The notes beneath the pieces are model-generated. The model was given only the letters and a program-made list of their open reading frames with translations. It was not told the origin of the DNA and did not search any database. A program made the translations under genes and the position numbers. This document shows, in pieces, positions 25,291-62,511 of a stretch of DNA of 64,000 nucleotides. Source of the stretch: Thermotoga maritima MSB8. GTDB taxonomy: Bacteria > Thermotogota > Thermotogae > Thermotogales > Thermotogaceae. The DNA lies in assembly GCF_000008545.1 (NCBI RefSeq), contig NC_000853.1, positions 200,465 through 264,464 on the forward strand, written 5' to 3'. The stretch's first letter is position 1. Each line of letters begins with the position of its first letter.

Positions 25291-25500
25291 TTGAAGTGGA
25301 AAACTTTAATTGAGGGAAGTGAACTGGAGGTAAAGATGATCGAGGATATATTGAAAGAAAACGGAGTACCTTACGTAGTTGAAACGTGTGATGATGTTAC
25401 ACCGAGAGCGATTTTTGGTTCTTCAGCCCTCATGGTGATAAAGGTACCAGAGAAATTTTTAGAAGAAGCAAAGAGAATTCTGGAGGAGATGCGGGAATGA
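25291..25500 (+). CDS. DUF2007-type small protein
   Basis: 69 residues. The pattern KTLIEGSELEVKMIEDILKENGVPYVV followed by ALMVIKVPEKFLEEAKRILEEM fits the DUF2007 ferredoxin-like fold sometimes called a putative signal-transducing protein. Its function is not known. TTG start with AAGGAGGATT upstream. The stop overlaps the gcvT ATG (ATGA), so it is the first gene of the glycine operon. Confidence 0.75.
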   Translation: MKWKTLIEGSELEVKMIEDILKENGVPYVVETCDDVTPRAIFGSSALMVIKVPEKFLEEAKRILEEMRE

Positions 25501-26591
25501 AGAGAACGCCTCTATTTGAAAAGCATGTTGAACTCGGTGCGAAAATGGTAGATTTCGCGGGGTGGGAGATGCCTCTTTATTACACATCCATATTCGAAGA
25601 AGTGATGGCAGTCAGAAAATCGGTGGGGATGTTCGATGTCTCTCACATGGGGGAATTTCTCGTTAAAGGGCCCGAGGCGGTTTCTTTTATTGACTTTCTT
25701 ATAACGAACGACTTTTCTTCACTTCCGGATGGTAAAGCGATTTACTCTGTCATGTGCAATGAAAACGGTGGAATCATCGATGATCTTGTTGTGTACAAGG
25801 TGAGTCCTGATGAAGCTCTCATGGTGGTGAACGCGGCAAACATTGAAAAGGACTTCAACTGGATAAAATCCCATTCGAAGAATTTCGATGTCGAAGTATC
25901 GAACATTTCAGATACGACAGCGCTCATAGCGTTCCAGGGGCCAAAAGCACAGGAGACCCTCCAGGAGCTTGTTGAAGACGGTCTCGAGGAAATTGCCTAT
26001 TATTCTTTCAGAAAGAGTATTGTAGCCGGTGTAGAGACTCTTGTCTCAAGAACGGGATACACGGGTGAGGACGGTTTCGAACTGATGCTTGAAGCGAAGA
26101 ATGCACCGAAGGTCTGGGATGCTTTGATGAATCTGCTCAGAAAAATCGATGGCAGACCCGCAGGTCTTGGGGCGAGAGACGTTTGCCGACTCGAGGCGAC
26201 TTATTTGCTGTACGGTCAGGACATGGATGAGAACACGAATCCTTTCGAAGTGGGACTTTCCTGGGTTGTAAAACTGAACAAAGACTTCGTGGGGAAGGAA
26301 GCGCTGCTGAAAGCGAAGGAAAAAGTGGAAAGAAAACTTGTGGCGCTTGAGCTCTCTGGAAAAAGAATAGCAAGAAAAGGCTATGAAGTTTTAAAGAATG
26401 GAGAGAGAGTGGGAGAGATCACAAGTGGTAACTTCTCTCCAACTCTTGGGAAGTCGATAGCGCTGGCTCTCGTTTCAAAATCGGTGAAGATAGGAGACCA
26501 ACTGGGAGTGGTGTTTCCTGGTGGAAAGCTTGTAGAAGCTCTGGTAGTAAAAAAACCATTTTACAGAGGCAGTGTGAGGAGGGAGGTTTGA
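25497..26591 (+). CDS. gcvT: Glycine cleavage system aminomethyltransferase (T protein)
   Basis: 364 residues; releases ammonia from the aminomethyl-lipoyl H protein and passes the one-carbon unit to tetrahydrofolate. FAGWEMPLYY near the N-terminus, MFDVSHMGEF (folate-site region), and RTGYTGEDGFELM with DARGVCRLE-like GLGARDVCRLEATYLLYGQD match the family. Coupled to both neighbours by overlaps. Confidence 0.96.
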   Translation: MKRTPLFEKHVELGAKMVDFAGWEMPLYYTSIFEEVMAVRKSVGMFDVSHMGEFLVKGPEAVSFIDFLITNDFSSLPDGKAIYSVMCNENGGIIDDLVVYKVSPDEALMVVNAANIEKDFNWIKSHSKNFDVEVSNISDTTALIAFQGPKAQETLQELVEDGLEEIAYYSFRKSIVAGVETLVSRTGYTGEDGFELMLEAKNAPKVWDALMNLLRKIDGRPAGLGARDVCRLEATYLLYGQDMDENTNPFEVGLSWVVKLNKDFVGKEALLKAKEKVERKLVALELSGKRIARKGYEVLKNGERVGEITSGNFSPTLGKSIALALVSKSVKIGDQLGVVFPGGKLVEALVVKKPFYRGSVRREV

Positions 26592-26593
26592 AG

Positions 26594-26962
26594 ATGAAAA
26601 AGTACACGAAAACTCACGAATGGGTGTCGATTGAGGACAAAGTAGCAACGGTTGGAATAACGAATCACGCTCAGGAACAGCTCGGCGATGTGGTCTACGT
26701 GGATCTTCCTGAAGTCGGCAGAGAGGTGAAGAAAGGGGAAGTTGTGGCGAGTATAGAGTCTGTGAAAGCCGCAGCGGACGTGTACGCTCCTCTCAGTGGG
26801 AAGATCGTGGAAGTGAACGAGAAACTCGATACTGAACCTGAACTCATAAACAAGGATCCAGAAGGAGAAGGCTGGCTTTTCAAAATGGAAATATCCGATG
26901 AAGGCGAACTCGAAGATCTTCTGGATGAACAGGCTTATCAGGAATTCTGTGCTCAGGAGTAG
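26594..26962 (+). CDS. gcvH: Glycine cleavage system H protein
   Basis: 122 residues carrying the lipoyl-lysine motif SIESVKAAADVYAP and the H-protein opening YTKTHEWVSIEDKVATVGIT. It shuttles the aminomethyl group between P, T and L proteins. An upstream in-frame TTG (26588) exists, but AGGAGGGAGG is spaced for the ATG at 26594. Lipoylation would need a lipoyl synthase or ligase; none of the classical genes is nearby. Confidence 0.95.
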   Translation: MKKYTKTHEWVSIEDKVATVGITNHAQEQLGDVVYVDLPEVGREVKKGEVVASIESVKAAADVYAPLSGKIVEVNEKLDTEPELINKDPEGEGWLFKMEISDEGELEDLLDEQAYQEFCAQE

Positions 26963-26990
26963 TTTCTCATAGAAATCCGGAGGTGTCCTG

Positions 26991-28304
26991 ATGAACTATC
27001 CTTACATTCCCCACACGGATGAAGACGTCCGTGCCATGTTGGACTTCATAGGGGTTTCTTCCATAGAAGAGCTGTTTTCTTCGATTCCTGTTTCTGCCAG
27101 GTCGTCTCTGAATATTCCAGAGTCCAGAGATGAGTTCAGTGTTTTCAAGCAGTTGAAAGAGATTTCTGAGATGAACAATTCTCTTGAAGACTACGCTGTC
27201 TTTCTTGGTGCCGGCGTTTATAAAAGATACGTTCCCACGGTCGTTTACGATCTTGCGATGAAGCCCGATTTTCTCACCGCTTATACACCGTATCAGGCGG
27301 AGGTATCCCAGGGAACCCTCCAGGCTCTGTTTGAATACCAGACCATGGTATGCGAACTGACAGGAATGGAAGTGGCGAACGCATCCATGTACGATGGAGC
27401 CACCGCTCTGGCGGAAGCGGCTCTAATGAGTTTTCGGCTCACCGGAAAGGAAAAAGTGGTTGTGGCAAGGTCCGTTCATCCCGAGTACAGAGCAGTCTTG
27501 AGAACCTATCTCGAAAAAAGAGGTTTCACCGTGGTGGAAGCCGGATACGACGAAACGGGAAGGGTCCTGTTAGAAGAGGTCGATGAGGAAACGGCGGCGA
27601 TAGCCGTTCAATATCCCAATTTCTTTGGAATCATAGAGGATCTCGATTATGTCAGAAGCCGATCGGGTAATGCTCTTCTGATAGTGGTTGTAGAACCAGT
27701 TTCACTCGCTCTTCTGGAACCTCCAGGAAGTTACGGGGCAGACATCGTGGTTGGTGAAGGCCAGTCGCTGGGACTTCCCATGTGGTTCGGAGGATATTCC
27801 CTTGGAATCTTTGCCACAAGAGAGGAGTACGTGAGGCAGATGCCGGGGAGATTGATTGGACAGACCGTGGATCAAGCCGGTAACACAGCCTACACCATGA
27901 TCCTTCAGACCAGAGAACAGCACATAAGGCGAGCCAGAGCCACTTCGAACATATGTTCCAACCATGCCCACGCCGCTCTGATCGCGGCTGTTTACATGAG
28001 TGTGATGGGACCTGATGGTTTGAAGGAGGTAGCCAGGCGTTCTTACAACGCCGCTCATTACCTCCAGGAAAGACTGGAAGAAATTGGATTCAAACTGTGC
28101 TTTTCGGGAGAATTTTTCAACGAGTTCGTTTTCAACGTGCCAGAAGATTATCCTGATCGGTGGAGGAAAATGATGGAGAAGAAGATCCTTGGGCCGTTGC
28201 CTTTGGAAGAATTTTATCCGGAACTTGGAGACACAGCACTCGCGTGTGCCACAGAGGTGATTTCCAAAGAGGATATAGAAAAGCTCCTGGAGGCGATGAA
28301 ATGA
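26991..28304 (+). CDS. gcvPA: Glycine dehydrogenase (decarboxylating) subunit 1
   Basis: 437 residues, the N-terminal half of the split P protein. It opens [20 protein letters not shown] and contains [20 protein letters not shown] and [22 protein letters not shown]-type sequence. It lacks the PLP lysine, which is on subunit 2. GGAGGTG before the ATG; overlaps gcvPB by four bases. Confidence 0.95.
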
Positions 28305-29725
28305 CGATATTTGAGAGATCTAAAAAGGGAAGAAAAGCATTCCGGCTTCCCGAGAGTGACATTCCAGAATATTCCCTTCCGGATCGATTTCTCAGGAGGA
28401 CACCTCCGGAGCTTCCCGAGGTGAGCGAGCCTGATTTGGTGAGGCATTACACCAATCTTGCCAGAAAGAACTACTCTGTGGATCTCGGAATCTACCCCCT
28501 CGGTTCCTGCACCATGAAGTACAATCCCAAACTGAACGAAAAAGCTGCGAATCTCGAAGGATTCAGAGAGATACACCCGTATCAGCCCGTCGAAACTGTT
28601 CAGGGCAGTCTTCGGCTCATGTACGAACTGAAAAAAATGTTGTGCGAGATAACGGGAATGGATGATATGACACTTCAACCCGCTGCCGGAGCTCACGGAG
28701 AACTCACGGGAATGCTGATAGTGAGAGAGTACTTTAAAAACAGAGGGGACACTGGAAGAAAGAAAGTTCTCGTACCGGATTCTGCCCACGGTACCAACCC
28801 AGCATCTGCTTCGATGGTTGGTTTTGAGGTGGTGGAGATAAAGAGCAAAAACGGTATGGTGGATGTGGAAGATTTGAAAAAACTACTGGATGAAGAAGTA
28901 GCCGCTGTGATGCTCACAAATCCAAACACGCTTGGGCTCTTCGAAAAGGACATACTGAAAATAGCGGAAATGACGCATGAGTGTGGTGCCCTTCTCTATT
29001 ACGATGGTGCGAACCTCAACGCGATCATGGGTAAAGTGAGACCAGGAGACATGGGGTTCGACATCGTCCATTTGAACCTGCACAAGACGTTTTCCACTCC
29101 CCACGGAATGGGAGGGCCCGGATCTGGGCCAGTTGGTGTGAAAAAGCATCTGGTGGATTTTCTGCCCTTCCCCCAGGTAAAGAAGAACGGAGAACTTTAC
29201 GAACTCTTCGTTCCTGAAAAGACCATAGGACGTGTGAGGAGTTTCTTTGGAAATTTCCCGGTTCTCGTAAAAGCGTACACGTACATTCTCACGATGGGAA
29301 GAGACGGCCTTGAAAGAGTGAGTGAAATGGCCGTTTTGAACGCGAACTACTTGAAGAAAAAAATAGAGAAGTTCCTGGAGATTCCATACAATGGGTTCTG
29401 CATGCATGAATTCGTGGCGAGCGCGGAGAAAGTGTTCAGGGAAACCGGTGTGAGAACACTGGATATTGCGAAGCGAATACTGGACTTTGGTGTGCATCCT
29501 CCCACAGTTTACTTTCCACTCATCGTTCCGGAAGCACTCATGATAGAACCAACTGAGACTGAAAACAAAGAAACGCTGGATAAGTACGCCGAAATCCTTG
29601 AAAGAGTGGTAAAAGAAGCCTATGAGAATCCTGATGCTTTGAAAAACGCTCCTCACAACACACCGGTTCGAAGGGTCAACGAAGTGCTCGCTTCGAAGAA
29701 ACCCGTGTTCAGGTGGAGGGGATAG
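28301..29725 (+). CDS. gcvPB: Glycine dehydrogenase (decarboxylating) subunit 2
   Basis: 474 residues with the PLP-lysine segment [20 protein letters not shown] and the substrate motif [13 protein letters not shown]. With GcvPA it decarboxylates glycine. The frame is open 141 bases upstream inside gcvPA, but the ATG in the ATGA overlap and the family N-terminus fix the start at 28301. No gcvL (dihydrolipoyl dehydrogenase) is in the window. Confidence 0.95.
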
Positions 29726-38401: not shown

Positions 38402-38631
38402 GATTAGATTTGTTTCTCAAGATCTCGGTGGTGAAGAGAAGAACGATTGCCCAGAAACTTCTGAAAGGGCAGAGAGTTTTGGTGAACGGAAGACCCGCGA
38501 AAGCCTCGTACGAGGTAAAGGACGGAGACATCGTGGAGGTGTTCTTACCAACCAAGAAAATAATCCTAAGGGTTGTGGGAAACGGAGGCTATGAAATCCT
38601 CAGTGAGGAGAGAGTGAGTAAACCTTTTTGA
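38398..38631 (+). CDS. rqcP: S4-domain RNA-binding protein, RqcP/Hsp15 type
   Basis: 77 residues: MRLDLFLKISVVKRRTIAQK, then GQRVLVNGRPAKASYEVKDGD, the alpha-L RNA-binding motif, then a short basic tail. This is close to RqcP (YabO) of Bacillus, which binds stalled 50S subunits and promotes alanine tailing with RqcH, and to Hsp15 of E. coli. I infer rather than see that role here. ATG overlaps the ecfA stop (ATGA). The last 32 bases overlap the convergent birA gene. Confidence 0.8.
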   Translation: MRLDLFLKISVVKRRTIAQKLLKGQRVLVNGRPAKASYEVKDGDIVEVFLPTKKIILRVVGNGGYEILSEERVSKPF

Positions 38632-39295
38632 TCTCTCCGTCGAAGTCTATCAACAGACTATCGGGGTTTATCTTTACGATCTTTCCCTTCTTTCCTTCCA
38701 GAGATATGAGATCTCCTTCTTTCTGAAGAAGGTACCTCTTCCAGATCCTCGTCAAAGCTTCTTTCTTCCTTGAGTATTTTCTGAAAATCACGCGCGCGTT
38801 CTTCAACATCGACTCCATGAGTTTCACAATGCTGATTTCTTTTCCCATGATTTCCTTCAGACTGATCGCTCTTGTTTTCAACTCGGCTGGGATTTCGTTG
38901 TTCACGTTCATGCCCACTCCCACAACAACGGCGAGAGGCTTTGCACCTTCAAAAATTCCCTCTGAGAGAACTCCTGCGAGCTTTCTCCCGTTTATGTACA
39001 CGTCGTTGGGCCACTTTATGTTCGCATGTATTTTCATGTTTTCAAGAGTTTTCACAACTGCTACTGAGAACACCCTTGTGTAAAACGAAAGCTCCAGTGG
39101 CTTTCTCGGTTTGAAAAGCACCGAAAACCATAATCCACCCTTTGGAGAGTGCCAGTGTCTTCCGCTTCTTCCGTATCCGGAGGTCTGCTCCAACGCGACC
39201 ACCACCGTGCCATCGGGATAGAAACGGTAATTCTCTTTCAAGAAACGATTCGTGGAGTCTATGGATTCGAAAGAAATGATCTTTTCTCCTATCAA
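38600..39295 (-). CDS. birA: Biotin--[acetyl-CoA-carboxylase] ligase (BirA, no DNA-binding domain)
   Basis: 231 residues of ligase only: ESIDSTNRFLKE, the biotin-site motif TSGYGRSGRHWHSPKGGLW, IKWPNDVYINGRKLAGVL, and VGVGMNVNNEIP. It makes biotinyl-AMP and biotinylates carrier proteins. Without the N-terminal helix-turn-helix it cannot be the classical repressor. The frame is open 12 codons further, but GGGAGGGAGAGAG supports the TTG at 39295, which also leaves room for the divergent promoter. Confidence 0.9.
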   Translation of the reverse strand: MIGEKIISFESIDSTNRFLKENYRFYPDGTVVVALEQTSGYGRSGRHWHSPKGGLWFSVLFKPRKPLELSFYTRVFSVAVVKTLENMKIHANIKWPNDVYINGRKLAGVLSEGIFEGAKPLAVVVGVGMNVNNEIPAELKTRAISLKEIMGKEISIVKLMESMLKNARVIFRKYSRKKEALTRIWKRYLLQKEGDLISLEGKKGKIVKINPDSLLIDFDGEIKKVYSLSPH

Positions 39296-39310
39296 TCTCT
39301 CTCCCTCCCG

Positions 39311-39319
39311 TGCTACAAT
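39311..39319 (+). promoter_or_regulatory. Extended -10 promoter of the desulfhydrase gene
   Basis: TG-C-TACAAT, 30 bases before the ATG at 39349 in the divergent gap with birA. Confidence 0.5.
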
Positions 39320-39348
39320 TCTAACAAACAAAAAGAGGGGGGAGACGA

Positions 39349-55954: not shown

Positions 55955-56980
55955 GTGGATCTCTATTTTGTGAAGTTCAGGGTCACATCGAAGCTCACAT
56001 CTGAAATCGTTCAGGGGTATTTCCTCGGCAAACTCAACCAGATCCCCGAGTACGATTTTTTTGTGATACCGGGTCGGTACGCCCGGAAATATTCTGTAGA
56101 TTTGAATCTTGGATTTGAAGATTTCCTTGAAGATTTTAAAGCGAAAAAGGAATCGGCTTTGAAAGAAGTACTGGAAGCTTCTGCCATAACGGATGAATTC
56201 TTCGATTTCTGGCTGATTCAAAGCAGAAAACAGAACCTCCGGTTGGTGGGGAGCGAGTTTTTCAGGCTCGTTGAAAGCGGTGATCACGAGGCGCTCAGGG
56301 TCTTCATAGCCGACCTTTTCAGGGAGTGGTCTGAAAAACTAGAGGTTGAAGTGGTAGGAGTGCCTCTGGACTATGAAGACGTTTCTCTTGAAGTGGTGAA
56401 AGAGCACTTCGAAGAACTCTCGACTGATGAAGTTTTTAAATTGTTTCAGAGAGAAGACTTGAGAAATCTGCCGGAAGTGTTTCCGGTTCTTGATCCCTTG
56501 AACGGCGTGACCATAAGAGAGATAGATGTGGAAGAGAGGATAGATTTCGTGATCCTGAACTATGGAAATGAAGAGTTTTCGGAGAAGTTCAAGAGGTTTC
56601 TGAAGGAAAAGTTCGGGACGGAAAACGTAGCGAGTCTCCCCGGAAAAGTCCTTTCAAAAGAAATCGTGAAGACCAGGGAAGGAACTCTTTATCTTTTGAA
56701 GGTAGAGTTTGAAGAAGGAATAATTGGAAAAGCCATAGTATCCCCGAATTTGAAGATAAAACGCGGTGAAAGCAGGGTGAAGATTTCCGATGAAGAATGG
56801 ATGGAAAAAATAGGAGAGATGCTCAAGGAGGGGGAAGAATCGAAGCAAGAAAAGTTGAAACTGAGAAACTCTCCTCAGCCCGTTCAAAAAACGACGAGTT
56901 CGGATTTTCTCCTCGCTCTCGTGCTGGCGCTTCTTGTCATGGGAATTCTTCTGATACTTTCTTATCTTCTTTTCAGTTAG
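55955..56980 (+). CDS. Protein of unknown function with C-terminal membrane anchor
   Basis: 341 residues. No signal peptide; a long acidic soluble part (1 to about 310), a polar Pro/Thr/Ser linker (SPQPVQKTTSSD), and one very hydrophobic helix at the extreme C-terminus (LLALVLALLVMGILLILSYL), the layout of a tail-anchored protein facing the cytoplasm. The second half contains YGNEEFSEKFKRFLKEKFG and GTLYLLKVEFEEGIIGKA. I recognise no family. GTG start, four bases after glgC; followed by the pilin-like small gene. Confidence 0.75.
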   Translation: MDLYFVKFRVTSKLTSEIVQGYFLGKLNQIPEYDFFVIPGRYARKYSVDLNLGFEDFLEDFKAKKESALKEVLEASAITDEFFDFWLIQSRKQNLRLVGSEFFRLVESGDHEALRVFIADLFREWSEKLEVEVVGVPLDYEDVSLEVVKEHFEELSTDEVFKLFQREDLRNLPEVFPVLDPLNGVTIREIDVEERIDFVILNYGNEEFSEKFKRFLKEKFGTENVASLPGKVLSKEIVKTREGTLYLLKVEFEEGIIGKAIVSPNLKIKRGESRVKISDEEWMEKIGEMLKEGEESKQEKLKLRNSPQPVQKTTSSDFLLALVLALLVMGILLILSYLLFS

Positions 56981-56991
56981 GTTCTCTTGTC

Positions 56992-57249
56992 ATGGAAGTC
57001 CTTTTTGCTCTTCTCATCGTCACAGTGATCTTTTTCACGGTTTGCAGTGTTTCCATTCATGCGAGAAGGATATTTTTACTTTACAGGGAAAGAGAAATAG
57101 CTGAAAGAACCGCAGATGGTGTGCTCATGCGATTGGAAGCAAAACAGTCGATTCCTGAGTTTTTGAACGGTTTCGAGATCAGTGTAGAAGGGAGCAGGGT
57201 TCGCCTGAGAAAACAAGAAAGAGAATACGAGTTTGAGGTGGAGAAATGA
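56992..57249 (+). CDS. Small membrane protein, possibly pseudopilin-like
   Basis: 85 residues: MEVLFALLIVTVIFFTVCSV is a single N-terminal helix, then a charged stalk (REREIAERTADGVLMRLE) and a short beta-rich end. The helix resembles the EVLIAL-type hydrophobic start of type IV pilins with Glu at residue 2. The in-frame bases just upstream would read GSLV before MEV, loosely like the GFTLIEV cleavage site, but I find no start codon there. The ribosome site is weak. A pilin role is only a guess. Confidence 0.6.
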   Translation: MEVLFALLIVTVIFFTVCSVSIHARRIFLLYREREIAERTADGVLMRLEAKQSIPEFLNGFEISVEGSRVRLRKQEREYEFEVEK

Positions 57250-58097
57250 TGCTCAGAGCATCTTACGGAACGATTCGGAAAGTAAATGGAAACTCGTCCT
57301 TAGAGATGGACACCGCTTATCTCATGCTTGGAGAAAGGTGTGTTTACAACTGTCTGTACTGCGCGCAGTCACGCTCTTCCACAAGCCCATCTCATTTTCT
57401 CTCCAGGGTCACCTGGAAAGAGGTTTCGGAAGATTTGCTTGGCAAATTGAACGATCGTTTCAAGAGGGTTTGTATCCAGGTTGTTTCTTATCCTAGCTAC
57501 GGAAAGGATCTCAGGTTGATCATTCCAAGGTTTCGTATACCGGTTTCAGTGAGTGTCAGAGCAGTCAGCATAGAAGAAGTTGTGGAGTACTTCGAACTGG
57601 GAGCAGACAGAGTGGGTATCGCTGTGGATGTCCCCAACAAAACTCTCTTTGAAAAAATCAGAGGAGGAAAGTACGAGAGACACCTTCATATCCTCGAAAA
57701 GGTATCAGAAATGTTTCCTGGAAGGATCACAACACACGTGATAGTCGGACTGGGTGAAAGCGATAAAGACATCGTTGATTTTACAGTGTGGGCAAGGGAA
57801 AGAAATATCGTGGTTTCTCTGTTTGCTTTCACCCCTATCAAGGGAACAGCCTTTGAAAACAGAGAAAGACCTTCCCTCGAGCGTTACAGAAAAATCCAGC
57901 TGGTAACTTACCTTCTCGAGAAAAACCTGATAAAGCCGGAGAACATAATTTTCGACTCAAATGGTAAAATTATTGACGTTGAATGGAACGGCGAGTTTCC
58001 AGAAGAGGCTTTAAGAACCCGCGGATGCCCTCACTGCACGCGTCCCTACTACAATGAAAGCCCAAGAGGTCCCATCTACAACGTTCACTGGAGGTGA
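57246..58097 (+). CDS. Radical SAM protein, function uncertain (lipoyl/biotin synthase-like)
   Basis: 283 residues. The radical SAM cluster is C32-x3-C36-x2-C39 (RCVYNCLYCAQS), and CIQVVSYPSYGKDL and HVIVGLGESDKDIVDF fit a BioB/LipA-like TIM barrel. A second cysteine pair, C261 and C264 (RGCPHCTRPYYNESPRG), near the C-terminus could hold an auxiliary Fe-S cluster or metal. A sulfur-insertion role, for example half of a LipS1/LipS2-type lipoyl synthase, is possible because GcvH needs lipoate, but this is inference. The stop lies five bases before rnfC. Confidence 0.8.
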   Translation: MMLRASYGTIRKVNGNSSLEMDTAYLMLGERCVYNCLYCAQSRSSTSPSHFLSRVTWKEVSEDLLGKLNDRFKRVCIQVVSYPSYGKDLRLIIPRFRIPVSVSVRAVSIEEVVEYFELGADRVGIAVDVPNKTLFEKIRGGKYERHLHILEKVSEMFPGRITTHVIVGLGESDKDIVDFTVWARERNIVVSLFAFTPIKGTAFENRERPSLERYRKIQLVTYLLEKNLIKPENIIFDSNGKIIDVEWNGEFPEEALRTRGCPHCTRPYYNESPRGPIYNVHWR

Positions 58098-58101
58098 AAC
58101 T

Positions 58102-59409
58102 GTGCTCACTTTCAAGGGAGGAGTACACCCCCCGGAATTGAAAGAATGGTCGAAGGACAAACCTATTGAAAGGGCACCTCTACCTCAGAAGGTTTTCGTC
58201 TTTCTTTCCAATCATGCGGGGAACCCGGCGAAACCAGTGGTTTCTCCCGGTGACGAAGTGAAGACCGGTCAGGTTATAGGAGAACCTGAAGGTTTCATTT
58301 CCGCTTATCTGCATTCTCCTGTGACAGGAAGAGTACTCGAGATAAAGAAGATCCTGCACCCAATCCTTGGAAAGCCCATCGAAGCGATCGTTATAGAAAG
58401 AACCTCTGACGATGAGTGGGTTCACATAGAAACTGGGGATTTTGAACGCATGTCGAAAGAAGAAATCCTGGAAATCATCAAAAAAGCGGGAATCGTTGGT
58501 CTGGGTGGAGCGATGTTTCCAACCCACGTTAAACTCTCACCTCCTCCCGAGAAAAAAGTGGATACCTTGATCGTCAACGGGGCGGAGTGTGAACCCGTTC
58601 TCACGATAGATCACAGACTCATGCTAGAAAGAGCCGAGGACATCCTCCAGGGAATCCTGATAATGATGAAGGTTCTGGGGGTTCAAAAAGCCGTAGTCGG
58701 TGTAGAGAGCAACAAGATGGATGCGTACCACAATTTGAAAAAGGTTTTCAAGGGATATCCCGTTGATGTTGCTCTCCTCAGGACCAAATATCCGCAGGGT
58801 GCAGAAAAGCAGCTCATATACGCGATAACCGGAAGGATGGTACCGAGAGGCGGTCTTCCAATGGATGTTGGAGTGGTGGTCCAGAACGTCGGTACCTGTG
58901 TTGCTGTGAAGGAAGCGGTCGTCGATGGAAAACCGCTCGTGGAAAGAGGTATGACAGTCAGCGGTGATGCCGTGAAAAATCAGAAAAATCTGATCGTCAG
59001 AATAGGGACACCCGTGAAGGATGTTATCGACTACTGTGGTGGAATAGATGAGAACACGGAGCGTGTCATCCTCGGTGGCCCGATGATGGGAATATCCATC
59101 ACAAATCTGGACATCCCTGTTATGAAAGGAACTTCTGGAATAACCGCGTTTCTTCCAAAGAAGTCTCGACCTCAGAAACCCTGTATTAGATGCAGTGAAT
59201 GTGTTCAGGTGTGTCCGATGAACCTTCAGCCTTACCTTCTCTATCTCCTCTCCACGAAGAGAAAGTACGACGAAGCTGTGGAAAACGGTTTGATGGACTG
59301 TATAGAGTGCGGCTCGTGTACCTACACCTGTCCTTCGAAGATAGAACACGTAAGGTACATAAAACTCGCAAAAACAGTGTATCGCGCCACAAGGAGGGGT
59401 AGAAGATGA
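58102..59409 (+). CDS. rnfC: RNF complex subunit RnfC
   Basis: 435 residues: TFKGGVHPPELKEWSKDKPI opening, the NADH/FMN region GLGGAMFPTHVKLSPP, NGAECEPVLTIDHR, and two [4Fe-4S] motifs CIRCSECVQVCP and CIECGSCTYTCP. It is the NAD-side entry module of the Na+- or H+-pumping ferredoxin:NAD oxidoreductase. The open frame extends upstream into the radical SAM gene, but GGAGGTGA fixes the start at GTG 58102. Confidence 0.95.
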   Translation: MLTFKGGVHPPELKEWSKDKPIERAPLPQKVFVFLSNHAGNPAKPVVSPGDEVKTGQVIGEPEGFISAYLHSPVTGRVLEIKKILHPILGKPIEAIVIERTSDDEWVHIETGDFERMSKEEILEIIKKAGIVGLGGAMFPTHVKLSPPPEKKVDTLIVNGAECEPVLTIDHRLMLERAEDILQGILIMMKVLGVQKAVVGVESNKMDAYHNLKKVFKGYPVDVALLRTKYPQGAEKQLIYAITGRMVPRGGLPMDVGVVVQNVGTCVAVKEAVVDGKPLVERGMTVSGDAVKNQKNLIVRIGTPVKDVIDYCGGIDENTERVILGGPMMGISITNLDIPVMKGTSGITAFLPKKSRPQKPCIRCSECVQVCPMNLQPYLLYLLSTKRKYDEAVENGLMDCIECGSCTYTCPSKIEHVRYIKLAKTVYRATRRGRR

Positions 59410-60362
59410 AGCTGATAAGCGCTTACGCTCCACACCTTCGAGAAGAGGATGATGTGAGAAAGATCATGCTGGATGTGCTCATAGCCCTATCACCAGCGGT
59501 TATTGGGGCGGCTTATTTCTTCGGATGGTATGCTCTATTTCTCTGTATCGCAGGAGCGGTGATAGGTGAGCTGTTCGATATATTCGTCATGAGATACCTG
59601 AGAGGAGTGAAGGATTTCGTCCCGGATGGCAGCGGGGCAGTGACAGGACTGCTTCTGGCGATGAACGTGAGCACAAGGCTTCCTTTCTGGGCTTTTTTGT
59701 TGGGACTCGTTTTCGCTCTGGGGATCGGGAAACACGTGTTCGGAGGACTCGGCCAGAACATTTTCAACCCTGCGCTCGTCGGAAGAGCGTTTCTGCTCAT
59801 TTCTTTTCCCACTTACATGACCACCTGGGTTGTACCCGGGGCAGGATTCTGGAAATCTCCAGCGGATGTGGTAACGGCAGCAACTCCTCTTGCACTTTTC
59901 AAGGAACACGGTGTTTTCACACCCTATTGGGATCTGTTCATAGGTAAGGTTGGAGGATCCTTAGGTGAAACGAGTGCACTTCTTCTCATAATTGGTTTCA
60001 TCTATCTTCTCTTGAGAAAGAGAGTGAAGATATTCATTCCTGTCTCCTATATAGGAACTGTTCTTGTGTTTTCTTCGATAGCTTATTTGATGAATCCAAG
60101 GTACGGTGATCCTCTCTTTCACCTCCTCAGTGGTGGTCTCATGCTCGGTGCACTTTTCATGGCCACCGATATGGTGACGAGTCCCATCACCGCGAAGGGA
60201 CAGGTGATCTTCGGGATTGGATGTGGCGTTCTCACGATGGCTATAAGACTCTTTGGAGCGTATCCTGAAGGCGTTTCATTTTCGATCCTTTTCATGAATG
60301 CACTGGTTCCCCTGATAGACAGGTACACCAGACCGCGCATCTTCGGTGAGGTGAAAAAATGA
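59406..60362 (+). CDS. rnfD: RNF complex subunit RnfD
   Basis: 318 residues, about nine or ten helices; DGSGAVTGLLLAMNVSTRLP and the covalent-FMN site VTAATPLALF (Thr in the S/T-x-AT-PL motif). A core membrane subunit. ATGA overlap with rnfC. Confidence 0.94.
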   Translation: MKLISAYAPHLREEDDVRKIMLDVLIALSPAVIGAAYFFGWYALFLCIAGAVIGELFDIFVMRYLRGVKDFVPDGSGAVTGLLLAMNVSTRLPFWAFLLGLVFALGIGKHVFGGLGQNIFNPALVGRAFLLISFPTYMTTWVVPGAGFWKSPADVVTAATPLALFKEHGVFTPYWDLFIGKVGGSLGETSALLLIIGFIYLLLRKRVKIFIPVSYIGTVLVFSSIAYLMNPRYGDPLFHLLSGGLMLGALFMATDMVTSPITAKGQVIFGIGCGVLTMAIRLFGAYPEGVSFSILFMNALVPLIDRYTRPRIFGEVKK

Positions 60363-61033
60363 AGGATATCCTGAAGACTGGATTGATTCTGATGGTTTTC
60401 ACGGCTATTTCTGGACTCTTTCTTGGACTCGTGTATGTGGGAGTCAAAGGAAAGATCCAGGAAGCGGATAACGCAGCTAAGTTGAGCGCCATCAAATTCG
60501 TTCTGAAAGATCCCCTCACGGGAGATTATCTGGTGGATGAAAAAGAAATCGAGGAAATCGTCAAAAAAACAGGCATAGAAACGGTTGTTCTGAAAGAGTA
60601 CAAAGAAGGGGTAGTCCTTGGTCCCTTGTATGAATTCGTGACGAAGGATGGCAGAAACGCATACGTTCTGTCGGGATACGCACCCGGTTTTGGAGGAAAC
60701 GTGACCGTTGTAGCCTGTTTTATAAAAACGGAAGATGGATTCATGCTCAATTCCGTGAGAGTAATAGATTATTCTCAGGAGACGCCTGGACTCGGCGCAA
60801 AGATAGGAGAAGAAAGTATACAGAGGCGTTTCTTTCCAGTTCCACCCGAAGGACTGAAGAACGGCCTGAGGGTCGACAAAGATGCGGGACTTCCGAAGGG
60901 TTCTCCTGAGGAGTTGAAAAAGCAGGGTATTGTGAAGGTAAGCGATGTAATGACGGGAGCAACGATCACACCAAGGGCCGTGGTGACCGCTCTGAATCTC
61001 ATGTACAGGTACCTCGAGGAGGTGTCGAAATGA
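60359..61033 (+). CDS. rnfG: RNF complex subunit RnfG
   Basis: 224 residues: one N-terminal helix (GLILMVFTAISGLFLGLVYV), then an extracytoplasmic FMN-binding domain with the flavinylation motif MTGATITPRAV (Thr bearing FMN). SQETPGLGAKI is the usual preceding motif. Flavinylation needs an ApbE-type transferase, not seen in the window. Confidence 0.94.
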   Translation: MKDILKTGLILMVFTAISGLFLGLVYVGVKGKIQEADNAAKLSAIKFVLKDPLTGDYLVDEKEIEEIVKKTGIETVVLKEYKEGVVLGPLYEFVTKDGRNAYVLSGYAPGFGGNVTVVACFIKTEDGFMLNSVRVIDYSQETPGLGAKIGEESIQRRFFPVPPEGLKNGLRVDKDAGLPKGSPEELKKQGIVKVSDVMTGATITPRAVVTALNLMYRYLEEVSK

Positions 61034-61632
61034 GCCGCTTGAGAGAATTAACTAAGGGGATCATAAAAGAGAATCCCACTTATGTTCAGGTTCTTGGAAT
61101 GTGTCCCACACTCGCCGTCACCACGAGTGCCATCAACGGTCTGGGGATGGGGCTTGCTACGACAGCCGTTCTCACCATGTCAAACGTGGTTATTTCACTG
61201 ATAAGAAAGATCGTTCCTGATAAGATCAGAATTCCTATATTCATCGTTGTTATCGCGTCTTTCGTTACCATGATAGATCTCCTCATGCACGGTTTTGCCT
61301 ACGATCTGTGGAAGACCCTGGGACTTTTCATTCCTCTCATAGTGGTGAACTGTATCATAATGGGAAGGGCGGAATCGTTCGCTTCCAAGCATGGTGTTCT
61401 GGATTCCATGCTCGATGGCCTGGGAGTGGGTCTCGGTTTCACAGGTTCGCTTGTTCTCCTTGGAAGCGTCAGAGAACTCTTCGGTAACGGTACGATCTTC
61501 GGTTACAAAGTGTGGGAGTTGAAGATATTTCTTGAAATTCTTCCACCGGGAGCCTACATAACACTCGGTCTTCTCTCTGCACTCTTCACCTACATCGGCA
61601 TCAGGAGAAAGAAAAGAGGTGAAGCGAAATGA
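61030..61632 (+). CDS. rnfE: RNF complex subunit RnfE
   Basis: 200 residues, about six helices. GMCPTLAVTTSAINGLGMG and VVNCIIMGRAE hold the conserved Cys pair that, with RnfA, binds an intramembrane [2Fe-2S] cluster. ATGA overlaps on both sides. Confidence 0.95.
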   Translation: MSRLRELTKGIIKENPTYVQVLGMCPTLAVTTSAINGLGMGLATTAVLTMSNVVISLIRKIVPDKIRIPIFIVVIASFVTMIDLLMHGFAYDLWKTLGLFIPLIVVNCIIMGRAESFASKHGVLDSMLDGLGVGLGFTGSLVLLGSVRELFGNGTIFGYKVWELKIFLEILPPGAYITLGLLSALFTYIGIRRKKRGEAK

Positions 61633-62204
61633 AGGTGTTTTTGCTCTTCTTTTCTGCCATATTCGTGAACAACTTCGTTCTGGCGAGGTTTCTCGGGATT
61701 TGTCCCTTCCTGGGGGTCTCCAAAAGGTTGGAAACGGCAACAGGAATGGGTATAGCCGTTACGTTCGTTATGACGGTTTCTGCTGCCATCAGCTGGTTTC
61801 TGGACAAGCTCCTTATCTCCACAGGACTTGAATTTCTGAGAACGATCGTCTTCATACTCGTCATCGCTTCTTTCGTCCAGTTCGTCGAACTGTTTTTGAA
61901 GAAAACCAGCCCGGATCTCTACGAAGCGCTTGGTATTTTCCTGCCTCTCATCACCACAAACTGTGCGATCCTCGGTATGGTGCTTTTGAACAGTCTCATG
62001 AAGCTCAACTTTGTTGAGGCGGTCTTCCACGCACTGGGATCTGGTCTTGGATTTGCTCTTGCTCTTGTGATATTCGCCGGAATAAGGGAAAAAATGGATC
62101 TCTACGATCTGCCGGAGCCTTTCAAAGGCACCGCCATAGCCCTCATCACCGCGGGACTTCTTTCGCTTGCTTTCATGGGATTCCAGGGAATGGTGAAGCT
62201 GTGA
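61629..62204 (+). CDS. rnfA: RNF complex subunit RnfA
   Basis: 191 residues, about six helices, a paralogue of RnfE in opposite topology. FLGICPFLGVSKRLETA and TTNCAILGMVLLN carry the matching cysteines. ATGA overlap with rnfE; followed after 13 bases by rnfB. Confidence 0.95.
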   Translation: MKVFLLFFSAIFVNNFVLARFLGICPFLGVSKRLETATGMGIAVTFVMTVSAAISWFLDKLLISTGLEFLRTIVFILVIASFVQFVELFLKKTSPDLYEALGIFLPLITTNCAILGMVLLNSLMKLNFVEAVFHALGSGLGFALALVIFAGIREKMDLYDLPEPFKGTAIALITAGLLSLAFMGFQGMVKL

Positions 62205-62217
62205 GGAGGTGAAGGAG

Positions 62218-62511
62218 TTGGAAGTCATCTACTCGACGCTCTTGCTCGCTGTTCTGGGTTTTGGGTTCGGGGCTTTTCTTGCCTATTCTGCGCAAAGATT
62301 CAAGGTGGAAGAAGATCCACGTGTGAAGATGATAACGGAGGTTCTTCCTGGAATAAACTGTGGCGCGTGCGGTTTTGCCGGGTGTGAAGCCTACGCGAAG
62401 GCGATCGTGAAGGGTCAGGCGGAAACGAACAGGTGTCTCCCCGGAAGACCTCAGGGTGTCGAAGAGAAGATAAAGAAGATTCTCGAGGAGTACAAGAATG
62501 TCTCCTCTTGA
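62218..62511 (+). CDS. rnfB: RNF complex subunit RnfB, short form without the ferredoxin domain
   Basis: 97 residues from TTG 62218 (AGGAGGTGA five bases upstream): one helix (about 5-23), then the [4Fe-4S] motif GINCGACGFAGC...C with C48, C51, C56 and C73. RnfB of most bacteria continues with one or more two-cluster ferredoxin modules (total roughly 190-330 residues); here the chain stops just after the first domain, and dprA starts inside its end, so no missing part lies downstream. The usual ferredoxin-docking route must be replaced by another protein. Confidence 0.88.
   Translation: MEVIYSTLLLAVLGFGFGAFLAYSAQRFKVEEDPRVKMITEVLPGINCGACGFAGCEAYAKAIVKGQAETNRCLPGRPQGVEEKIKKILEEYKNVSS

Follow-up and report, generated by a model that had tools for sequence, protein, structure and literature searches.

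The 64,000-nt stretch of Thermotoga maritima MSB8 DNA analysed here (the window) carries on its forward strand an open reading frame with an ATG start (lipS2, positions 57246..58097; 283 aa), whose product is assigned to the radical SAM lipoyl synthase subunit LipS2 through its match to the model NF053743. It is followed by rnfC (58102..59409, + strand; TIGR01945, 647.6 bits), a neighbour outside the lipoyl pathway, the start of which was read from the sequence. The rnf genes specify a sodium-pumping complex that is unrelated to LipS2. The rnfC GTG at 58102 stands four bases past the lipS2 stop and its GGAGG lies inside the last lipS2 codons, an arrangement that, on inspection, makes cotranscription of the two genes likely. 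The open reading frames that come next on the same strand (59406..62511) represent rnfD, rnfG, rnfE, rnfA and rnfB, with the D, G, E and A names taken from the order rnfCDGEAB in PMC7414866 (available in part). The RnfB product (62209-62511) matches the rnfB and FeS models and, at a length of 100 aa, contains just one FeS motif and does not match a ferredoxin domain; a 100-aa RnfB of T. maritima has already been reported, and no gene before rnfC is named in the available part of the same paper (PMC7414866).

Upstream, an open reading frame of uncertain start (56797..57249, + strand), which looks pilin-like by eye, overlaps the lipS2 start in an ATGA; a family scan of its portion 56962-57249 gave no match. 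Ahead of it, a gene for a DUF4899 protein (55955..56980, + strand; PF16240, 411 bits) is, by synteny, a conserved upstream neighbour, and these two frames are situated between glgC and lipS2 (55955-57249). In several Thermotogota, DUF4899 stands beside lipS2 even where rnf is encoded elsewhere, and in four such genomes (G035-G037 and G049) both glgC and DUF4899 are retained upstream.

In another part of the window, open reading frames for the glycine cleavage genes gcvT-gcvH-gcvPA-gcvPB occupy 25497..29725 (+ strand), with GcvH identified by HMM, GcvT and GcvPB by eye, and a GDC-P family match at positions 227467-228759 of the contig (G000:C1). The predicted lipoylation substrate, GcvH, had been placed within the window by an earlier note on this DNA, and it was indeed found there (26588..26962, + strand; TIGR00527, 158.7 bits). 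Along all 124 residues, this protein matches the PDB entries 2ka7 and 1zko, the latter of which we take to be a T. maritima protein.

Family assignment and predicted cysteine ligands of LipS2

The LipS2 equivalog model NF053743 matched the translated product over model positions 1-291 of 292 with 322.3 bits, above its curated cut-off of 270. The second-best NCBIfam model, BioB (TIGR00433), gave 43.3 bits against a cut-off of 225, LipA (TIGR00510) 24.8 bits against 310.25, and LipS1 19 bits, far under its cut-off, as was MoaA. The CxxxxCxxxxxC motif of LipA is absent from the lipS2 translation, and Pfam returned Radical_SAM only (PF04055, 57.4 bits).

The earlier note had also drawn attention to a CxxxCxxC core and a second cysteine pair, both of which are present in the translation. 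The former, CVYNCLYC (C32-C36-C39; 57339..57362, + strand), holds the radical SAM cluster ligands, in keeping with the PF04055 match; the latter, CPHC (C261, C264; 58026..58037, + strand), stands within RGCPHCTRPYYNESP near the C-terminus and would contribute ligands of an auxiliary cluster. An additional cysteine that the note did not mention, C76 (57471..57473, + strand), is the putative third ligand of this cluster, completing the LipS2 layout of a CxxxCxxC motif, one central cysteine and a C-terminal CxxC. An alignment of 91 Thermotogota rows (72 distinct sequences) was made up of the window and 90 loci from part of the 80 LipS2 genomes, with 19 rows repeating a gene already present. None of the six cysteines varies in any of the 91 rows, and the motif GCxxCxRP[YF]YN likewise recurs in every row. 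Relatives beyond the phylum were drawn from the best 80 of 573, which comprised 21 titled as Thermotogota or genera thereof, 58 others and one (L197, 'bacterium') that was left uncounted; among these 58, C32, C36, C39 and C76 are kept in every row and C261/C264 in 57, the remaining row being gapped there. Invariance of all six residues argues that the C-terminal motif is not a product of chance.

In order and spacing, this arrangement matches that of Thermococcus kodakarensis (Tk) LipS2 (TK2248), with which it was compared by position numbers: C39/43/46, C85, C276 and C279 of the archaeal enzyme correspond to C32/36/39, C76, C261 and C264 here, and C76 shares order and spacing with C85. In Tk LipS2, C39, C43 and C46 make up the radical SAM motif, whose triple variant is inactive, and the exchanges C85A, C276A and C279A each lower activity, C85A least (PMC9585515, available in part).

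An AlphaFold model of LipS2 has a mean pLDDT of 89; residues 261-283, which hold CPHC, are of low confidence (block means 55-62), and the distance between C76 and C261/C264 is not readable from it. In a structural comparison, HydE came out on top (Z 16.8), next to LipA and BioB (16.0 each), with no LipS2 entry among the 50 matches listed, and HydE is also the best PDB match by sequence (E 2.5e-05). Together with the second place of BioB among the NCBIfam models, this could be read as identifying a biotin synthase or a HydE-like maturase instead of LipS2. We consider such an identity extremely improbable, as HydE, BioB and LipA fall within one Z unit of each other, which speaks to a common fold only and allows no function to be read from it, and as the BioB score stays far under its cut-off whereas that of LipS2 is passed. 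Besides, LipS1 and LipS2 of T. kodakarensis were themselves annotated as biotin synthases (PMC9585515, in the part available).

Candidate partners in lipoyl-GcvH synthesis

The genome consists of one contig of 1,860,725 bases, and the second radical SAM paralogue that the earlier note had advised looking for is encoded on it: a LipS1-like gene (G000:C1:1858202-1858888; L001:1450-2229, - strand in L001) lies ~1.6 Mb from lipS2 along the contig, or ~0.26 Mb should the contig be circular. A LipS1 partner for LipS2 is thus found in the same genome, though its 211 bits against the LipS1 model remain under the curated cut-off of 230, and we call it LipS1-like on the grounds of its predicted ligands and of co-occurrence. 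The protein has the CxxxCxxC motif, internal cysteine, C-terminal CC and conserved histidine of LipS1, and the residues concerned (C28/C32/C35, C217, C252, C253 and H148) show no variation across the 50 rows of an alignment from which one locus (L054) was dropped. In order and spacing they resemble C27/31/34, C230, C276, C277 and H159 of Tk LipS1 (PMC9585515, available in part), and in neither organism is the LipS1 partner a gene neighbour of lipS2. A T. maritima control genome gave the same picture, with a LipS1 match under the cut-off and no LipA.

The window had been described in the earlier note as devoid of lipA, lipB and lplA, which held beyond its borders in the case of LipA, for which the whole genome gave no match at E<=1e-15. 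A genome-wide search with the LplA/LipB catalytic domain (E<=0.01) returned a single match within the window, and this is the biotin-protein ligase BirA (38600..39331, - strand; TIGR00121, 162.2 bits against a cut-off of 83.1), not a lipoate ligase. A LipM-type protein of 236 aa is encoded elsewhere in the genome (L067:1474-2184); it is of the LplA type (PF21948, 71 bits) and has no further domain. Its Cys128, in the sequence CFDAPS, is presumably the LipM active-site cysteine; it recurs in one other genome (G019) and in three rows of family f8 and is missing in 21 other LplA-family rows, in a comparison leaving out five of 30 loci (L150, L151, L156, L158 and L159) whose coordinates put them beside lipA. 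Among NCBIfam models, only lipoate-ligase models matched the LipM-type protein, far under their cut-offs, and a PDB sequence search returned nothing at E<=1e-5.

The family model, the ligand cysteines, the LipS1-like partner and the absence of LipA all support the reading of the 57246-58097 product as LipS2, which together with the LipS1-like protein would form a two-protein lipoyl synthase replacing LipA. Judged from sequence, we put the probability of this at about 0.95. The split lipoyl synthase that the earlier note had favoured is thereby borne out; a LipA in the genome and a clustering of the protein in another radical SAM family, which the note had named as grounds for giving up the idea, were both looked for and neither was found. 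Counted against LipS2 is the scatter of lipS1, lipS2, the LipM-type gene and gcvH over this genome, with no linkage among them.

If step order and chemistry are carried over from the T. kodakarensis enzymes, for which they have been described (PMC9585515, available in part), the LipM-type octanoyltransferase would load octanoate onto GcvH. LipS2 would then introduce the first sulfur at C8, using a SAM-derived radical and a sulfur of the auxiliary [4Fe-4S] cluster held by C76, C261 and C264, and LipS1 would add the second at C6 from its own auxiliary cluster, to yield lipoyl-GcvH for the glycine cleavage system. The end product and the logic of radical SAM sulfur insertion would be those of classical LipA, which, in contrast, performs both insertions alone. 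Compared with T. kodakarensis, the host here is bacterial, lipS2 stands ahead of rnfC, and the octanoyl step is predicted to proceed via a LipM-type enzyme rather than the T. kodakarensis ligase (PMC10332631, in the part available). LipS2 is a known kind of enzyme, of a pathway already described in archaea and bacteria. A 2023 survey, of which a part was available, noted members of Thermotogota with LipS1/S2 and LipM, i.e., the same enzyme pair and, in this phylum, the same type of octanoyltransferase (PMC10332631). The pair would explain how lipoyl-GcvH is made without LipA in this Thermotoga and, coming from a hyperthermophile whose LipS2 has HydE as its nearest PDB sequence, offers material for structural work.

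LipS1, LipS2 and LipA in Thermotogota and beyond

Across 103 Thermotogota genomes, LipS2 scored over its cut-off in 80 and LipS1 was matched at E<=1e-15 in 82, 37 of these over the curated cut-off and 45 without passing it; LipA (E<=1e-15) was found in 12. Both LipS1 and LipS2 occur in 79 genomes, LipA alone in 11, none of the three in nine and a single countable LipS gene in four, namely three from assemblies that are 60-82% complete (G062, G074 and G102) and one in which the lipS2 frame is split (G041). This near-exclusive split between LipS1/S2 and LipA is the pattern predicted by LipA replacement. GcvH and the GcvP family were each detected in 101 of the 103 genomes. In G019, the pathway genes are contiguous on one strand, with lipS1 (C1:509525-510301) followed by lipS2 (510310-511200) and a LipM-type gene (511320-511982).

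That the LipS1 of the genome under study and those of many relatives fall under the curated cut-off is, as far as our literature search reached, a new observation. Since the cut-off misses this LipS1 and others of its order, automatic naming may report half the enzyme.

A few genomes deviate from the general picture. G047 is the one genome with LipS1, LipS2 and LipA; its LipA lies between two LplA/B-type genes (C21:4033-7336) and possibly belongs to an acquired second pathway. The lipS2 of G041 (C17:87616-88474) is broken by a stop or frameshift, yet stands upstream of rnfC, and may be either misassembled or decaying. Two LipA frames, L064 (G004:C165) and L065 (G005:C68), contain one and two in-frame TGA codons, respectively, which may reflect errors, decay or another genetic code.

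Outside the phylum, the 58 lipS2 loci from the best 80 of 573 relatives included lipS1 in 47 cases, a LipM/Lpl relative (types pooled) in 36, gcvH in 29 and gcvT in 15, as counted on fetched stretches, some of which end early at contig ends. A published neighbourhood analysis likewise lists H protein and ligase as LipS partners (PMC9585515, available in part).

The lipS2-rnfC gene order

Of the 80 Thermotogota genomes with LipS2, 33 have lipS2 directly ahead of rnfC and in the same orientation; these are spread over five of the eight families with LipS2 (f1, 8 of 14; f2, 9 of 9; f9, 4 of 6; f10, 9 of 18; f11, 3 of 3); contig breaks in drafts, e.g. in G022, may hide a few links, and for G097 and G102 the count disregards a second rnfC copy. 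The two genes are apart in the other 47 (f3, 19; f8, 10; f10, 9; f1, 6; f9, 2; f5, 1), 46 of which have rnfC elsewhere, and G011 gave no rnfC match at threshold. The order is most likely an old one of the phylum that was lost several times. A literature search joining Thermotoga, lipS2 and Rnf found nothing, and the available part of the 2023 survey makes no mention of an rnf link (PMC10332631); the extent of the arrangement is therefore new so far as the search reached.

The adjacency, recurring in five families, is what would be expected if LipS2 modified or matured RNF, for instance through lipoylation or thiolation of RnfC, which has a lipoyl-like barrel-sandwich hybrid as its N-terminal domain; moreover, the GcvH of the window (26588-26962) gives a weak hit to RnfC_N (23 bits, with the cut-off at 25.6). 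The earlier note had raised an RNF-related modification as its alternative, but this fared poorly and we regard it as very unlikely. Not only do the genes stand apart in more than half of the LipS2 genomes, nearly all of them with rnfC at another site, but 18 of 97 rnfC genomes have no LipS2 over the cut-off. None of the 58 lipS2 loci outside the phylum (drawn from the best 80 of 573 relatives) showed rnfC, D, E or A, and the genes associated with lipS2 there are lipS1 and those of glycine cleavage. In a hand alignment of 26 RnfC sequences, taken only where the fetched stretch held a 400-aa frame, the position facing the lipoyl lysine is occupied by F, Y, T or M and never by K, which makes lipoylation of RnfC unlikely. 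On linkage, alignment and gene context outside the phylum, RNF modification was rejected.

With LipS2 taken as a lipoyl synthase subunit, its place at the head of the rnf genes might instead reflect co-regulation via the ferredoxin pool. Here, lipS2 would be the leader cistron of rnf because RNF running in reverse feeds low-potential electrons to LipS2 and LipS1, and lipoyl-GcvH would serve both glycine cleavage and the assembly of the [FeFe]-hydrogenase H-cluster; aminomethyl-lipoyl-H-protein has a described role in the maturation of this hydrogenase (PMC11736057, available in part). We consider this improbable; if true, it would tie one cofactor step to the ferredoxin and hydrogen economy of the cell, and the conserved arrangement offers a testable lead on electron supply.

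HydG was found in 70 of the 103 Thermotogota genomes. H-cluster assembly as the sole reason for the pathway was rejected, given LipS1/S2 genomes without a HydG match (e.g. G012, G065, G087 and G099). As a separate observation, the weak match between GcvH and RnfC_N is in line with a barrel-sandwich hybrid fold common to the two.
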